Positions 34,817 through 54,700 of a stretch of 64,000 nt of DNA are shown here, piece by piece; within the stretch, counting starts at the first letter, position 1, and each line of letters starts with the position of its first letter. The DNA is taken from positions 4,154,001 through 4,218,000 of the forward strand of contig NZ_CP034550.1 in NCBI RefSeq assembly GCF_009498035.1. The letters run 5' to 3'. The position numbers were made by a program, and so were the translations under genes. Under the pieces are notes generated by a model, which was not told the DNA's origin, searched no databases, and saw only the letters and a program-made list of their open reading frames with translations. The DNA is from Saccharothrix syringae. Its GTDB lineage: Bacteria > Actinomycetota > Actinomycetes > Mycobacteriales > Pseudonocardiaceae.

Positions 34817-35314
34817 TCAGGCCCGTTCGCTGACCGGTCGGTGCAGGCAGATGCGGTCCTCGGGGCGCAGGCCGCGTTCGGCCTCGGCCGCCAGGACGGC
34901 TTGCAGGCCGGGGGACGGGTGCGCTGGTTCTGTGAAACCCAGTCGGCGGTAGTACGGCTCGTTCCACGGTATGCGGCGGAAGGTGGTGAGGGTGAGGGCT
35001 GTGAGGTCGTGCTCTGCCGCCCACGCCTGCACGTGGTCCAGGAGCTGCGCGCCGATGCCTTGGCGGGCGTGGGCGGGGTGGACGCTGAGCTGGGCTATGT
35101 GGGCTGCGTTGTCCAGGACCTCCACGCCCACCCAGGCGATGGGGGTGTCGTCCTTGTCGGCCACCCAGAGGTGGAGGCGTTGCAGTTCGGTCAGGAGGAG
35201 GGGCTCGTCGTCGGCTATCTCGGGCATGCCGTGGGCTCGGAAGGGTTCGCCGGAGGCGCGTTCCACCTCGCGGAGGAGGGGGAGTTCGTGGGGGCGGGCT
35301 GGGCGGAGTTCCAC
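34817..35314 (-). CDS. GNAT family N-acetyltransferase
   Basis: A 165-residue acetyl-CoA-dependent transferase of unknown substrate. The CoA-binding strand-loop is LSVHPAHARQGIGAQLLDHV, followed by WNEPYYRRLGF, typical of motif B. GTG 35314 lies 10 bp after the stop of the SRPBCC gene on the same strand; a nearby ATG is out of frame. The two probably share one transcript. Confidence 0.92.
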   Translation of the reverse strand: MELRPARPHELPLLREVERASGEPFRAHGMPEIADDEPLLLTELQRLHLWVADKDDTPIAWVGVEVLDNAAHIAQLSVHPAHARQGIGAQLLDHVQAWAAEHDLTALTLTTFRRIPWNEPYYRRLGFTEPAHPSPGLQAVLAAEAERGLRPEDRICLHRPVSERA

Positions 35315-35324
35315 CCCGGCATGG

Positions 35325-35696
35325 TCAGCCGGCGGTCAGGTTCTGTTCAACCTCGTTTGCCAGGGCTTCCAGGAGGCGGGCCGGCAGTTGGTCGTCCGGG
35401 CAGTCGTCGACCTGGAGTTCGACGACGCTGGCCGCTACGCCGGAGAGGGAGACTTGGAGGTGGCCTCGGCAGCCGTGGTCGGCCAGGGGTTCCCAGGTCA
35501 GGAGGAGGCGGTCGTAGTCGGCGGCCAGGTTCAGCTGACGTGGTTCGCCGTTCTCGTGGAGGATCAGGGTGTCGTTGTTGCGGCCCACTACCTCGTAGGG
35601 GGCGGGCAGCCACGCGGCCAGGCGTGAGGGGTCGGCGGCGGCGTTGAACACCAGGTCGGGGAGGGCGGGGACGTCGCGTCGCGCGTGGATGCTCAC
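35325..35696 (-). CDS. SRPBCC (START-like) family protein
   Basis: A 123-residue hydrophobic-ligand-binding fold, beginning MSIHARRDVPALPDLVFNAA and containing RLAAWLPAPYEVVGRNNDTLIL. The C-terminal helix is ARLLEALANEVEQNL. Ligand and role unknown. GTG 35696 lies 9 nt after a GGGTAA box, so the message may be leaderless. It is followed by the GNAT gene. Confidence 0.82.
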   Translation of the reverse strand: MSIHARRDVPALPDLVFNAAADPSRLAAWLPAPYEVVGRNNDTLILHENGEPRQLNLAADYDRLLLTWEPLADHGCRGHLQVSLSGVAASVVELQVDDCPDDQLPARLLEALANEVEQNLTAG

Positions 35697-35705
35697 GGGG
35701 GGCGG

Positions 35706-35730
35706 TTACCCCGTTGGGCGGACCGCACAC
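35706..35730 (-). promoter_or_regulatory. Possible SigB/SigF-like promoter of the SRPBCC gene
   Basis: Minus strand GTGT (35730-35727), 15 nt, GGGTAA (35711-35706). The -35 element is off by one base. Confidence 0.3.
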
Positions 35731-35826
35731 CGGTGGGGCCGGCCTGGCTGGGCCGACAGTTTTATTGATCCCGCCTGCTGGTGGGTCGGGTTGTCGCCGG
35801 TCAACCCCCTGGATTGCGTGGGGCCT

Positions 35827-35952
35827 CGATTTGACATGGGGCCCTTACGAGCACCGGAGGCTGGCCGCAGCCGGCAGGCACGGCGGGGAAAAGCGTCCCG
35901 CCGAGCCTGCCGGCTCCGACCAGCCTATGGCACTCGAACCCATGTCAAATCG
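35827..35952. repeat. 126-bp nested inverted repeat (hairpin element)
   Basis: Outer perfect arms CGATTTGACATGGG (35827-35840) and CCCATGTCAAATCG (35939-35952) enclose a second stem: AGCCGGCAGGC (35869-35879) pairs with GCCTGCCGGCT (35904-35914), and GGCGGG (35882-35887) with CCCGCC (35897-35902). The outer arms are much richer in A+T than the surroundings. It could be a non-autonomous mobile element or a structured RNA. Confidence 0.8.
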
Positions 35953-35990
35953 GGGCCCGCCGGCCCCACCGGACCCAGCGTCCTCCCGGC

Positions 35991-36210
35991 GTGTCATGCG
36001 TTCAGTCCGGGCGTGTCATGCGTTGGGCACCGGCGTGTCATGCGTTGGAGGTGGGTGTGTCATGCGTTCAAGCCGCGCGAGTCGAACGTTCAGGCCCGTC
36101 GTGTCGAACGGTCCGGGCCCCCGAGTTCTACGTTCAGGACCGGCGTGTCCTCCACTGGGACACCGCGTGTCGTCCGCTCGGACACCGCGTGCCCTCCAGT
36201 AAGGGGGCTC
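35991..36210. repeat. Ten-unit array with an exact 22-bp period
   Basis: Units begin at 35991, 36013, 36035, 36057, 36079, 36101, 36123, 36145, 36167 and 36189. Each starts GTG or GAG. Units 1-4 start GTGTCATGC; 5 GAGTCGAAC; 6 GTGTCGAAC; 7 GAGTTCTAC; 8 GTGTCCTCC; 9 GTGTCGTCC; 10 GTGCCCTCC. The second half of each unit is more variable and GC-rich. It ends 7 bp before the stop codon of the opposing SDR gene. Confidence 0.92.
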
Positions 36211-36217
36211 CTACCTG

Positions 36218-37027
36218 CTAAGACTTGCCGCTGCCCGGCTCGGTCATGGTGCGCATCGCCTTTGCCTTCACCGGGTCGGGCAGGGCTCGTCCGGCTGCTG
36301 CCTGCGCCTTGTTCCGCAGGGACCCGGCCACCACGTGGTCCTTGCCCGCCATCAGGGCCTCGTAGCCTTCCCGGGCCACCTCGGCCGGGTCGTCCCTGGG
36401 GCCGGTGGCGACCTTGGTGTCCTCCATGCCTGCTCGGCGGAAGAAGTCGGTGTCGGTGGGGCCCGGCATGAGTGCTGTGACGGTTACGCCGCTGTCCCGC
36501 AGCTCTTCGCGCAGCGACTGGGAGAAGGAGGCCAGGAAGGCTTTTGATGCGGCGTACACGGAGTGGAACGGGCCCGGGCCGGTTGCCGCCACCGACGAGG
36601 TGAAGAGGACGCGGCCTTCGCCTCGTTCCACCATTCGGGGGATCAGGCGCTTGGCCAGGTGCACTGCCGAGCCGATGTTGAGGTCCACTACCTGGAGGTG
36701 GGTGCGGAGGTCGCTGTCGTCCACGAAGTCACCGCCCACGCCTACGCCCGCGTTGATCGCCAGGGCCGCTACCGGCCTGTTCAGGTGCTCGATGACCGCT
36801 ACCAGGTCTTCGTTGCCCGAGTACGTGGACAGGTCTGCTCGGACCGGGGTTACCTGGGCGTTGTCGGTGGTGAGGTCTTGTGCCGCCTGTTCGATGGTGG
36901 GGTTCTCCGCCGCGATGACCAGGTCGAATCCCTGTTCGACGAAGACCCTGGCCAGTTCCAGGCCGATGCCGCTGGAGGCGCCGGTCACGACTGCCAGTGG
37001 TCGGGGTGCGTTCTCCGATGCGTTCAT
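36218..37027 (-). CDS. Short-chain dehydrogenase/reductase
   Basis: A 269-residue classical SDR using NAD(P)H on an unknown substrate. The Rossmann motif is VVTGASSGIGLELA, the strand-4 motif NAG, and the active site SSVAATGPGPFHSVYAASKAF with Ser, Tyr and Lys in place. ATG 37027 is preferred over a TTG 9 nt upstream; neither has a strong ribosome site. The 22-bp array lies directly beyond its 3' end. Confidence 0.93.
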   Translation of the reverse strand: MNASENAPRPLAVVTGASSGIGLELARVFVEQGFDLVIAAENPTIEQAAQDLTTDNAQVTPVRADLSTYSGNEDLVAVIEHLNRPVAALAINAGVGVGGDFVDDSDLRTHLQVVDLNIGSAVHLAKRLIPRMVERGEGRVLFTSSVAATGPGPFHSVYAASKAFLASFSQSLREELRDSGVTVTALMPGPTDTDFFRRAGMEDTKVATGPRDDPAEVAREGYEALMAGKDHVVAGSLRNKAQAAAGRALPDPVKAKAMRTMTEPGSGKS

Positions 37028-37135
37028 GGGGGTCAACTACCCCGAGTCATATCACCCAATCCGGTTTCACTCGATGTACTACTGGGAACACACCGGTACC
37101 TGGGGGTGCCACTGAGTGATGGTTGGCGGTGACGG

Positions 37136-38110
37136 ATGTCCGGAAGACGAGGTCAGGTCGGGGTGCTTGACGTCGGCTGCTTCAGTGCCCACCTGCTCGT
37201 GGTCGAGGGGTCGCCCCTCAACCCCGTGCTCTCGCACAAGACCAGGCTCCGCCTGGACCGGGCCCTCGACCGGCACAACCGGCTGCGTGCCGAGGGCGTC
37301 GACCAGATCGTGAACGCCGTCCGCGTCGCGCGGCGCACCGCCGAGCGCGCCGGGGTGGTGGACTTCGTCCCCTTCGCGACCTCTTCCGTGCGGGACGCGG
37401 TCAACGCCGACGAGGTCATCGCCGAGGTCGCCCGGCGCACCGGCACGCGGTTGCGGGTGCTGCCCGGTCACGAGGAGGCCCGGCTGTCCTACCTGGCGGC
37501 TCGCCGCTGGTTCGGCTGGCAGGCCGGGCCGCTGCTCGTGCTGGACGTGGGCGGGGGCACCGTCGAGCTCGCCGCCGGGGACGGGGCCACGCCCTCGTTG
37601 GCCCGATCACTGCCGTTCGGTGCTCGTACCCTGACCCGGCGGATGGCGCTCAAGGCGGTCCACGACCGCCGGTCGCGTCACCAGCGGCGTGGTGGTGACG
37701 AGCACCCCGAGCTGGTGCGGGTGCGTGACGCCGTGCGCGACGCGCTGGCCGACGTGCCCGCTCCGGGTTACCGCGCCGTCGGGTGTTCGAAGGTGTTCCA
37801 GCAGCTCGCGCGGCTCACCGGGGCACGGCCCCAGCAGGACGGCCCGTTCGTGGCGCGGTCGCTGCGGTTGGCCGACCTGCGGGAGTGGATACCCCGGCTG
37901 GCCGCCATGCCCGCGCCGAAGCGGGCTCGGCTGCCGGGGATCTCGCGGCACCGCGCCGAGCAGTCGCCGGCCGGTGCGCTGGTGGTGGAGGCGCTGATGG
38001 TCGCCTCCGGGCACGACCAGGTGGAGATCTGCCCCTGGTCCACCCGGGAGGGGCTGCTGCTCACCCTCGGTGGGCTGGGTGACGACGACGAGTACAGCCA
38101 GGTGGCGTGA
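37136..38110 (+). CDS. Ppx/GppA family phosphatase
   Basis: A 324-residue member of the exopolyphosphatase / guanosine pentaphosphate phosphatase family, which hydrolyses polyphosphate or pppGpp in the cytosol. It keeps the actin-fold phosphate loops VGVLDVGCFSAHLLVVEG and LLVLDVGGGTVELAAGD, and VPFATSSVRDA. The usual DIGSNS of loop 1 is DVGCFS here, as in the shorter actinobacterial Ppx2-like proteins. ATG 37136 has a weak ribosome site. Its stop overlaps a possible GTG start of the following STAS gene. Confidence 0.92.
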   Translation: MSGRRGQVGVLDVGCFSAHLLVVEGSPLNPVLSHKTRLRLDRALDRHNRLRAEGVDQIVNAVRVARRTAERAGVVDFVPFATSSVRDAVNADEVIAEVARRTGTRLRVLPGHEEARLSYLAARRWFGWQAGPLLVLDVGGGTVELAAGDGATPSLARSLPFGARTLTRRMALKAVHDRRSRHQRRGGDEHPELVRVRDAVRDALADVPAPGYRAVGCSKVFQQLARLTGARPQQDGPFVARSLRLADLREWIPRLAAMPAPKRARLPGISRHRAEQSPAGALVVEALMVASGHDQVEICPWSTREGLLLTLGGLGDDDEYSQVA

Positions 38111-44428: not shown

Positions 44429-49006
<4,578 letters not shown>

Positions 49007-51754: not shown

Positions 51755-54700
51755 TCAGCCCGGGCACGGGGGCGTGAAGTCCAGGTCCGGGAAGTGCTCC
51801 CGCCACTCGGCGGCGGTGAGCCGAGGGTGGGCCACCGCGCACACCTCGCCGGCGACGCGCTCCGCGTCGAGGTCCCACAGCCGGACCGCGGCGTCGCGGC
51901 CGCCGGTGACGACGGTCTGCCCGTCCCGGGTGAACGCGACCGAGTTCACCCGGTCGGTGTGGCCGGTCAGCAGGACCGGCGGTCCGGGGGAGCGGCGGTC
52001 CGCGACGGGCCAGATCCGCGCCGTGCGGTCGAACCCGGCGGTGGCCAGGGTGCGCCCGTCCGGGCTGAACGCGACCGAGTTGACCCCGTCGGCGTGGCCC
52101 ACCAGCACCGCCAGGGCGGCGGGGCGGCCGGGGAGGGCGACGTCCCACAGCCGCGCGGTGCGGTCGAATCCCGCCGTGGCCAGCGTGCGCCCGTCCGGGC
52201 TGAACTGCACGTCCGCGACCGCGTTGCCGTGCCCGGTCAGGGTGGTCGGGGCGCCGGGGTGCCGGGGGTCGCTGACGTCCCACAGCCGCGCGGTGCGGTC
52301 GGCGGCGGCGCTGGCCAGGGTGCGCCCGTCGGGGCTGAACACCACGGACAGGACGCGGTCGGTGTGGCCGCCGAGCACGACCGGTTGGCCGGGGTGCGCC
52401 GGGTCGGTGACGTCCCACAGCCGGATCGCGCTGTCGGCCTCGCCGGTGGCGACCCACCGCCCGTCGGGGCTGACCGCGACGGTGAACAGGTTCTCCGCAG
52501 GGGTGGTCAGCACGCCGACGCGGCGCGGCCGGGTGGGGTCGGCGACGTCCCACAGCCGGACGGTCCGGTCCAGGCCCGCGGTGGCCAGGAGCCGGCCGTC
52601 CCGGCTGAACGACGCCCTGAGCACCCCGTCGGTGTGCTCGGTGAGCGCGGCCGCCAGGACGGGCCGGCGGCGGTCGCGCACGTCCCACAGCCACGAGGTC
52701 CGGTAGCTGTTGGCGACCACCAGCCGGCCGTCCGGGCTGGGTGTGACCGAGTTGACCGGGCCGGTGTGGCCGCCGAGCACCGGGCCGCGCACGTCCCACA
52801 GCCGGGTGGTGGTGTCCCGGCCGGCGGTGGCCAGGGTCTCCCCGTCGGAGCTGAAGGCCACCGAGTAGACGACCTCGGCGTGCCCGCTCAGCACGACCGG
52901 CTGGCCCCCGAACGCCGGGTCGGTGACGTCCCACAGCCGGACCGTGGCGTCGTAGCTGCCGGTGGCCACGGTGCGGTCGTCGCCGAACGCGATCGCGACG
53001 ATCCCGTTCTCGTGGCCGGTCAGCGCGGCGAGCGGGTGGGCGCGGGCCGGGTCGGCGACGTCCCACAGCCGCAGCGCGTTGTCGAAGCCGCCGGTGGCCA
53101 GCACGCGCCCGTCGGGGCTGAAGGCGGCCGCCAGCACCCGGTCGGTGTGCCCGTCGAGCACCGCCAGTTGGACCGGCGCGCGGGGGTCGGTGATGTCCCA
53201 CAGGCGCACCGTGGTGTCCGAGCTCGCCGTGGCCAGCGTGCGCCCGTCCGGGCTCGGCACGGCCGCGACCACGGCGTCGGCGTGCCCGGTGAGCACGGCC
53301 AGCGGGACCGGGGCGCCCGGGTCGGTGACGTCCCACAGCCGGGCGGTGCGGTCGAAGCCCGCGGTGGCCAGCAGGCGGCCGTCGCGGCTGAACGCCACCC
53401 GGCGGACGTCCCCGGTGTGCCCGCCGAGCTCGGTGAGCGCTCGCGGCGCGGCCCGGTCGGTGACGTCCCACAGCCGCACCGAACCGCCGCCGCCGGACGC
53501 GGCCAGGGTGCGCCCGTCCGGGCTGAACGCCGCCGAGAGCACCGGGTCGGTGGTCCCGGGCGCGGTGGCCAGCGGGACCGGTCGGTGCCGGTCGGTGACG
53601 TCCCACAGCCGGACGGCGTGGTCAACGCCAGCGGTGACCAGGGTCCGCCGGTCAGGGCTGAACTCGGCGGTGTAGACGGCGCCGGTGTGGCCCTCGACGC
53701 GGGTGGAGTAGCGGGTCGCGAACGTGCTGAGCAGGCTGCCGCGCGCCTCGGGGGTCGGCGCCAGCCGGTACGCGGCCAGGCCGAGCTGCGCCGCGAGCGC
53801 CGGGTTCGTGCCGCGCAGCGCGGTGGCCTTGCCCGACAGCGCCGCGTTGCGCTGGTCGCGGGTGGCCTCCAGGCTCCCCACCGCGGTCGCCGTGGCCACG
53901 GCGGCGAGCAGCAGCATCGCCGCCAGCCCCGCGGTCAGTCGCCGCAGCCTGCGGGTGCGCCGGCGGGCCGCGGCCTGGTCGGCCTGCTCCTGCCGGACGG
54001 AGGCGTCGAGGAACTCCCGCGACAGCGGGGTCAGCAGGCGGCGGAACGCGGCGCTGCCCGCCCACTCCCGGGCCGCGGCGAGCCGGGTGCCCCGGTACAG
54101 GGCGGCGGGGTCGCGCTCCGCGCGGTGCCAGCCCGCCGCGGCCTCGCGGAGCTCGCGGCCGAGCACCAGGCCCGCGCGGTCGTGGTCCAGCCAGGACCGC
54201 ATCCGCGGCCACGCGGTCAGCAGCGCCTCGTGGCTCAGCTGCACGCCGTGGGCGTCGACGGTGACCAGCCGCTGCGCCACGAACCGGTCGAGCACGTCCT
54301 CGAGTTCGGCGGCCTGCTCGTCGGACAGGCCCGCGAACAGGTCCGCGACGGCGACCCGGCGGCGGGTATCGGCGGTGTCGGAGCCGACGTGGACCAGGTC
54401 GAGGAACAGCCGGCGGGCCCGTTCCCGCTGGGGTTCGGTCAGGCCCTCGTAGACCTCGGTGGCGGTGGCGGCGACCGCGCCCGAGATGCCGCCCGCCTCC
54501 CGGTAGCCGTCGATCGTCAGCCGTCGGCCCTGGCTGCGCTGCCACGTGGTGTACAGGGCGTGGGACAGCAGCGGCAGCACGGCGACGTCCCGGGGGGTGA
54601 CCTCGCGCAGCAGCAGCTCCACCAGCCCGTCCTCGACGTCGAGGCGGGCTTTGCGGGCCGGGCCGGTGATCACCCGGCGCAGCTCGTCCCCGGTCATCGG

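Follow-up and report, generated by a model that had tools for sequence, protein, structure and literature searches.

An indel-free 22-bp repeat array of Saccharothrix syringae belongs to a family of intergenic repeats dispersed in Pseudonocardiaceae genomes

The array and its neighbourhood

The DNA analysed here (the window) is a stretch of 64,000 nucleotides, 4.154-4.218 Mb of the one-contig, 10.93-Mb genome of S. syringae (G000 below), in which dnaA lies at the contig start. Inspection of the sequence bears out the original prediction of ten 22-bp units free of insertions and deletions at positions 35991-36210, and three Tandem Repeats Finder rows with period 22 jointly cover nearly all of this array. 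Read 5' to 3', the unit series is GTGTCATGC (four times), GAGTCGAAC, GTGTCGAAC, GAGTTCTAC, GTGTCCTCC, GTGTCGTCC and GTGCCCTCC. The features of the locus are as follows.

35325..35696, minus strand: gene on the other side of the array, starting at 35696 and reading away from it
35825..35954, no strand: near-palindromic hairpin element of 130 bp that adjoins the array and also constitutes a separate repeat family within the genus
35955..35990, plus strand: link joining the hairpin to the array, common to the composite copies in two forms
35991..36078, plus strand: units 1-4, GTGTCATGC type, the array head; a common type in the genome (sequence; many arrays of the genome)
36079..36100, plus strand: unit 5, GAGTCGAAC type, at its usual place in the order (sequence, order comparison, composite copies)
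36101..36122, plus strand: unit 6, GTGTCGAAC type, at its usual place in the order (sequence, order comparison, composite copies)
36123..36144, plus strand: unit 7, GAGTT- type (GAGTTCTAC), which ends the GWGTC series in most arms (order comparison, composite copies)
36145..36210, plus strand: units 8-10, GTGTCCTCC-like (sequence, order comparison, composite copies)
36218..37036, minus strand: SDR-family oxidoreductase gene, start position uncertain

Since the gene at 35325..35696 reads away from it, the array lies between co-directional genes, and the stop codon of the SDR-family gene falls 8 bp past the array's end. The closest named relatives of the SDR-family protein come from Saccharothrix and Actinosynnema. 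Units 8 and 9 hold the internal inverted repeat GTGTC...GACAC, and unit 10 is degenerate. An Rfam search of window positions 35000-37200 gave no match at the gathering score; several microRNA models matched the 130-bp hairpin below threshold, and none matched the array. Elsewhere in the window, seven tandem 276-bp (92-codon) repeats at 44618-46554 lie inside a large open reading frame (44429-49006), and tandem repeats of 135 bp (45 codons), which probably correspond to repeated protein domains, occur in blocks at 51950-53663.

Copy number and distribution

A type-neutral pattern spanning two units, GWGTNNNNCGTTN10GWGTNNNNCGTT, was matched 171 times in the genome and its reversed control not once, so the window array is not a chance occurrence. 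The window array with its flank gave 71 similarity matches in the same genome. The 49 stretches fetched around the listed similarity and pattern matches (pattern matches being listed to 8.76 Mb) contain 47 clusters of at least three matched units; with five more loci found by similarity only and the window's own locus, which stands outside the 47, we count at least 53 arrays. Clusters with at least two units number 54.

In the family, the pattern occurs in 34 of 199 other sampled genomes, at 1 to 315 matches per genome; where a genome has one or two matches, these may be due to chance. Fifteen of the 46 sampled genera carry it, the array's own genus included and a few having one or two matches, and the named hosts are at least Saccharothrix, Amycolatopsis, Actinophytocola, Pseudonocardia, Labedaea, Kibdelosporangium and Lentzea; the analyses of named species below use 80 loci (L049-L128) of 120 stretches. 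The other 165 family genomes have no match, and the arrays are therefore dispensable there. No match was found in 295 other genomes of a phylum sample or in 393 others of a class sample (two of which belong to the family, giving 0 of 391 outside it); these samples overlap, and the pattern is strict enough for drifted arrays to escape it. The pattern had no match in IMG/VR, nor had the window array, queried without the other dialects described below, among 72,556 plasmid and 50,697 phage records. A plasmid, phage or viral origin was set aside on these searches.

A local duplication without wider meaning, which the original prediction would have accepted had relatives lacked comparable 22-bp arrays, can be given a negligible probability: such arrays do occur in relatives, including other genera, their unit types are ordered, and the pattern count stands at 171 against none in the control. 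A literature search that covered few subscription journals returned no description of these 22-bp repeats, and six spellings of the 13-base core, searched as text, returned no paper. Judged by sequence comparison, the window array represents a large family of intergenic repeats that is dispersed in Pseudonocardiaceae genomes and is without description in the literature searched.

Period, core and order of the units

The unit consensus is a bipartite 13-bp core, GWGTC-NNN-CGTTC, followed by a 9-bp spacer. Among successive same-strand cores 14-32 bp apart, the spacing was exactly 22 bp in 539 of 546 cases (173 of 173 in G000; 136 of 136 in the genus genomes G007 and G522, whose loci are partly orthologous; and 230 of 237 in named species, the other seven being 21 bp), a count in which period 22 is favoured since most loci were found with 22-bp patterns, other spacings inside the loci being free to appear. 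When G000 units were picked by the right half of the core, G1, G3 and T4 carried 1.8, 1.7 and 1.4 bits and the spacer 0.1-0.9. When they were picked by the left half, C9 carried 1.8 bits, positions 10-13 carried 0.6-1.2 and the spacer 0.3-1.2, positions 10-11 (0.6-0.7 bits) not rising above the spacer. The right half of the core is weaker probably in part because GTGTCCTCC-type units have another right half. Near arrays, cores are rarely solitary: the 502,548 bases fetched there contain 128 arrayed cores and four isolated ones.

The usual order of types in the genome is (GWGTCATGC)n, GAGTCGAAC, GTGTCGAAC, GAGTTCNRC and (GTGTCCTCC)n, the GTGTCCTCC units coming after or before the others. A fixed order of unit types, raised as a question in the original prediction, is thus found at most loci, with exceptions: some arrays lack types, and a few are out of order or made up of two blocks (for example L188, L199, L215, L217). 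Other species also have a terminal GAGTT unit, spelled with different triplets, as in GAGTCCTCC, GAGTCGACC and GAGTTGCAC in Amycolatopsis suaedae. At seven loci of A. suaedae (L050, L052, L077, L083, L097, L108, L119) the array lies inside a longer conserved dispersed element, which in most copies has reversed GAGTTC units on its left and which has a conserved right tail, GGTCCCACTG...CCAGATCGCG.

Triplet dialects

As far as sequence comparison goes, the NNN triplet of the core is more alike within than between genomes, a property that we term a dialect. The dominant spellings (four letters from position 5), which for some species rest on few arrays, are CATG and CGAA in G000, CCTA in SaccB16348, CCAA in SaccALI, CGTA in Actinophytocola gossypii, CGCC in Pseudonocardia nigra, CCCC in Amycolatopsis taiwanensis and CCAC in Kibdelosporangium philippinense. 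Over 220 arms in 22 genome groups, in which related species are not independent, triplet identity within groups was 0.648, compared with 0.421 in 300 label shuffles (sd 0.011, maximum 0.455); spacer identity within groups was 0.607, compared with 0.549 (sd 0.007). Taken by rank, triplets agreed at 0.55-1.00 within a genome and 0.18-0.78 between genomes, and spacers at 0.40-0.67 and 0.32-0.64, respectively. A resemblance of some units to DnaA-box or LexA-box motifs was dropped because the triplet varies between genomes.

The contrast between triplet and spacer is uneven. It is strong at ranks 0 to -2 of SaccB16348, in SaccALI and in the head units of G000. At the two units ahead of the terminal one in SaccB16348, a single triplet was common to all unique units (12 of 12 and 11 of 11), spacer identities being 0.44 and 0.52; at ranks -3 to -5 of G000, triplet identity was 0.83-0.87 against 0.57-0.66 for the spacer. 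It is absent at G000 ranks -1 and -2 (triplet 0.55-0.59, spacer 0.53-0.59) and at G522 rank -1 (0.60 and 0.61), and reversed at SaccB16348 rank -3 (0.60 and 0.67, five units). For the terminal triplet, identity between G000 and G522 (0.64) was as high as within G000 (0.61). A caveat to the dialect comparison is that some of the G000 loci had been located through their similarity to the window array.

One orthologous convergent gene pair, encoding a FAD-binding protein and a BTAD regulator, carries an array in nine of the 13 genus genomes compared (out of 25, those with both genes in one fetched piece). The dominant triplet differs at this one place, being CATG in G000, CCAA in G020, CGAA in G013, CCTA in G003 and CGTA in both G007 and G522. 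Three genomes have a gap of 38-63 bp and no array, and one has a gap of 258 bp in which inspection by eye shows none.

Gene context, mirror-image arms and the RNA question

With gene orientation taken from our own gene caller, the 47 clusters occupy 23 convergent gaps, 23 co-directional gaps and one divergent gap; in the same stretches, 93 array-free control gaps of at least 150 bp were convergent in nine cases, co-directional in 50 and divergent in 34. Fisher p values are 7e-7 for the convergent enrichment and 2e-6 for the divergent depletion. Single arms in co-directional gaps are randomly oriented (nine one way and ten the other), and a gene-polarity (3'-UTR) model was rejected for this reason; the bias of 51 antisense to 13 sense gene-array neighbours comes mainly from mirror pairs in convergent gaps. 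Nor did the arrays show a shared neighbouring gene or transposase: the flanking genes are diverse, Pfam matching 160 families in 92 flanking proteins, the commonest of the 25 families listed in three proteins and none shared by all, and no reader protein or transposase was identified.

The origin-proximal half of the chromosome holds 43 of 48 G000 clusters, a list that beyond 8.76 Mb rests on similarity alone, and 36 of 47 G522 clusters among those listed (dnaA at 6.72 Mb). The simplest reason for this concentration would be that conserved genes are located there. Of the single arms in G000, 22 run along replication and ten against it, a weak bias.

Many loci consist of two arms in mirror image. 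Among pairs at most 60 bp apart there are 55, of which 30 face outward and 25 inward. Mirror arms as recent copies of each other are not supported by spacer matching, identity in G000 being 5.0 of 9 letters within a locus (26 pairs) and 5.12 of 9 between loci (418 pairs). At the centre of seven mirror arrays of G000 (L186, L193, L194, L199, L201, L202, L208) lies a palindrome near TGRRAGCGCTYYCA, which we take to resemble operators of the LacI family; similar CTGGGAGCGCTCCCAG sites lie off the array centres in L192 and L199. A second architecture is seen in the inward-facing arrays L291, L294, L302 and L305 of G007 and G522, some with a GTTCTTACTCGCGAGTGAAGAAC-like centre and with GAGTCGTAA-like units beside stop codons.

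These observations bear on an element acting at the RNA level, in which mirror arrays would be bidirectional terminators or 3'-end stem-loops of convergent genes. The enrichment between convergent genes fits such an element, as does the frequent start of arrays within about 30 bases of a stop codon, which some units themselves supply, and one mirror-image array that we folded forms a single long hairpin (z -19.9). Against it, the single-arm window array folds no better than shuffled sequence (RNA z -0.50, DNA z +1.34), and where a gene end is followed by an array at 40-200 bp, the interval from stop codon to array already contains a terminator-like stem of 8-17 perfect pairs in nine of 25 cases. 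Pairing is not tuned, given that arm spacers match no better within than between G000 loci; co-variation of pairing arms, as expected of bidirectional terminators, was not seen in G000, and single-arm loci exist. We regard an RNA-level element as improbable for the family. For the window array an RNA role is unlikely, and the processed RNA that had been proposed for it gains no support from the folding.

Composite copies and turnover

The hairpin, link and array form a composite that occurs at 12 places in the genome, the window included, with mostly unrelated outer flanks. Among the 12 composites, 101 of 8514 compared hairpin positions differ. At ranks -2, -1 and 0, differences fall on 47 of 2574 core positions and 247 of 1782 spacer positions, and the 13-bp core of the GAGTT- unit (unit 7 in the window) is invariant. 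Rank -3 shows less contrast (cores 42 of 858, spacers 46 of 594), and at ranks -4 and +1 to +3, where the unit is missing in some copies, divergence is 17-27% in cores and 17-51% in spacers. Within the genus the hairpin is also found in places that lack an array, and it may be conserved or homogenised independently of the arrays, so it is not a neutral clock. Its near-palindromic sequence is CTCGATTTGACATGGGG...CCCATGTCAAATCGGG (35825-35954 in the window; L010-L018). The nine hairpin copies listed from other genomes are 90-96% identical to that of the window, mostly without arrays, and in several genomes the hairpin lies in what appears, from gene identity judged by eye, to be the hemD-hemB intergenic region. 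Like MITEs and other composite non-autonomous repeats, hairpin and array share their sequence across places whose outer flanks mostly do not; unlike MITEs, the array itself has no identified terminal inverted repeats, target duplication or transposase, and the composite boundaries, inspected by eye, show no clear target-site duplication.

Turnover was followed between G007 and G522, which are about 97-98% identical at the locus compared. For 17 of the 20 G007 array loci fetched (out of about 32 listed), the 40 regions fetched from G522 include an orthologue. In these 17 aligned pairs, cores differ at 41 of 807 positions (5.1%), spacers at 90 of 575 (15.7%), other intergenic DNA at 340 of 7387 (4.6%) and coding DNA at 981 of 54,804; gain or loss of units can misalign paralogous units and inflate the spacer divergence. 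Spacers thus change faster than ordinary intergenic DNA and cores no slower, so that some of the contrast may come from exchange of units or from their misalignment. The aligned arrays contain 15 indels, four of exactly 22 bp and 11 of other lengths, some of which pair to 22 (9 + 13). Indels of one base number one in 1382 array positions and 27 in 7387 other intergenic positions. At two G522 loci (L333 at 7.12 Mb and L316 at 4.77 Mb), runs of seven to eight units have nearly all spacers identical; the runs are shorter in the near relative G007, pointing to recent local amplification or loss of units. At greater distance most loci differ: both flanks are shared with a known G000 array by six of 44 G522 clusters and four of 41 clusters of named Saccharothrix, one flank by a further one and four, respectively. 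From the six of 44 it follows that loci come and go.

Two earlier suggestions are modified by these data. The array had been set apart from slippage repeats; unit gain and loss does occur, as the 22-bp indels and identical-unit runs indicate, and it is not wholly unlike them. Its reading as a recombination substrate is partly supported, in that unit number and content turn over and the composite is present at 12 places.

Discussion

Several known systems offer comparisons. REPs and BIMEs, in the parts of PMC2817692 and PMC3733652 consulted, are short extragenic repeats, often more than 100 per genome, that are clustered and regularly spaced, have sequence types, form head-head and tail-tail pairs and are reiterated in tandem. 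The same excerpts describe REPs as palindromes of 20-40 bp (PMC3733652), BIMEs as alternating in orientation (PMC2817692) and both as reported to bind gyrase, IHF and DNA polymerase I (PMC2817692); the main text of PMC3733652 contains none of the words Actinobacteria, Saccharo-, Amycolatopsis, Actinosynnema or Streptomyces. The 22-bp arrays are likewise extragenic, clustered and present in tens to hundreds of copies. They differ in that most units are non-palindromic, an evident internal inverted repeat being confined in the window array to the GTGTCCTCC type, and in that each arm runs head-to-tail at 22 bp as an ordered series of types instead of alternating. By analogy, the arrays may work somewhat like BIMEs. 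Both REPs and uptake sequences have a known cognate protein (RAYT and ComP, respectively). A search for Y1_Tnp (PF01797, RAYT) in 25 genus genomes found it in five (G013, G015, G019, G020, G023) and not in the array-bearing G000, G003, G007, G018, G022 and G522; of the seven genomes in the genus that give 16 or more pattern matches, it was found in G020 alone. Membership in the RAYT/REP system was rejected because the G000 search did not find it.

A signal for DNA transfer with species dialects, in the manner of uptake sequences or of the TRS/clt sites of TraB conjugation, would account for part of the picture. DNA uptake sequences of the Neisseriaceae, in the sections of PMC3630211 available, have a short core spelled per species and form inverted pairs in intergenic DNA; they also occur in thousands of copies, commonly inside genes too, and are concentrated in permissive gaps of core genomes (PMC3630211). 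The core of the 22-bp unit is similarly kept within and spelled differently between species, more weakly at some G000 and G522 ranks, and the arrays share the preference for permissive gaps and lie in the origin-proximal half. TRS at clt loci are 8-bp repeats read by the sequence-specific protein TraB on Streptomyces plasmids and at clt-like chromosomal sites, according to the extract of PMC4170104 used. They resemble the arrays as repeated short sites in actinomycetes that are also chromosomal, the reader of the arrays being putative; the array core is 13 bp in a 22-bp frame, unlike the 8-bp TRS. Transfer signals are nevertheless a very remote prospect: the cores observed are arrayed in phase and not single, 171 two-unit matches in 10.9 Mb fall short of thousands, and the plasmid, phage and IMG/VR searches described above gave no match.

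The main rival to a functional reading holds that the arrays are selfish or neutral repeats without a reader, which grow and shrink by slippage and unequal crossing over, are copied as passengers (for instance with the 130-bp hairpin) and come to resemble one another within a genome through recombination between arrays (concerted evolution). It accounts well for the 22-bp indels between orthologues, the identical-unit runs in G522, the composite at 12 places, the patchy presence in the family and the small share of G522 clusters with both flanks in common with G000; promoter avoidance suffices for the gene context, and at some ranks the triplet is as loose as the spacer. What it explains less readily is that copying or conversion should take the spacers along, and between units of the same type only some half to three fifths of the spacer letters agree. 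Recent composite copies, too, differ more in spacers than in cores, and the 22-bp phase hardly drifts, with the one-base indels rarer in arrays than in other intergenic DNA. Fast unit exchange could blur the argument from spacers and cores. We consider a neutral origin quite possible.

The reading that we prefer, tentatively, is that the arrays are phased binding sites for a putative sequence-specific factor and have spread as non-autonomous intergenic repeats. Such a factor is proposed because the period hardly varies and is close to two helical turns, the core is retained while the spacer is looser, and the triplet is biased by genome. It would probably be a DNA-binding protein or a related set of them, occupying one unit after the next from the same side of the helix and reading the NNN triplet. 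Its specificity would shift between species, and the arrays would follow through unit turnover and selection. The arrays would not move themselves; their spread would occur in trans or through recombination, and they would persist at sites where they disrupt no promoter. The random orientation relative to co-directional genes and the mirror pairs facing both ways count against binding sites. The ordered protein-binding platform of the original prediction thus emerges as the best of the readings tested by phase, by core against spacer and by triplet, its binding component remaining conjectural.

A more far-reaching version, which we think doubtful, is that the arrays make up a chromosome-wide addressing system of one actinobacterial family, with helically phased, ordered arrays and one or more reader proteins whose three-base specificity evolves between species. 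Were this so, each genome would have its own dialect, and the system, concentrated in the origin half and between convergent genes, would correspond, in bacteria, to a fast-evolving satellite together with the protein that binds it.

The repeats point to a putative reader, and, if it exists, the many dialects would show how its specificity and its sites change together. If there is no reader, tandem units would be changing in concert at tens of scattered loci in a bacterium, and that would be worth explaining too.
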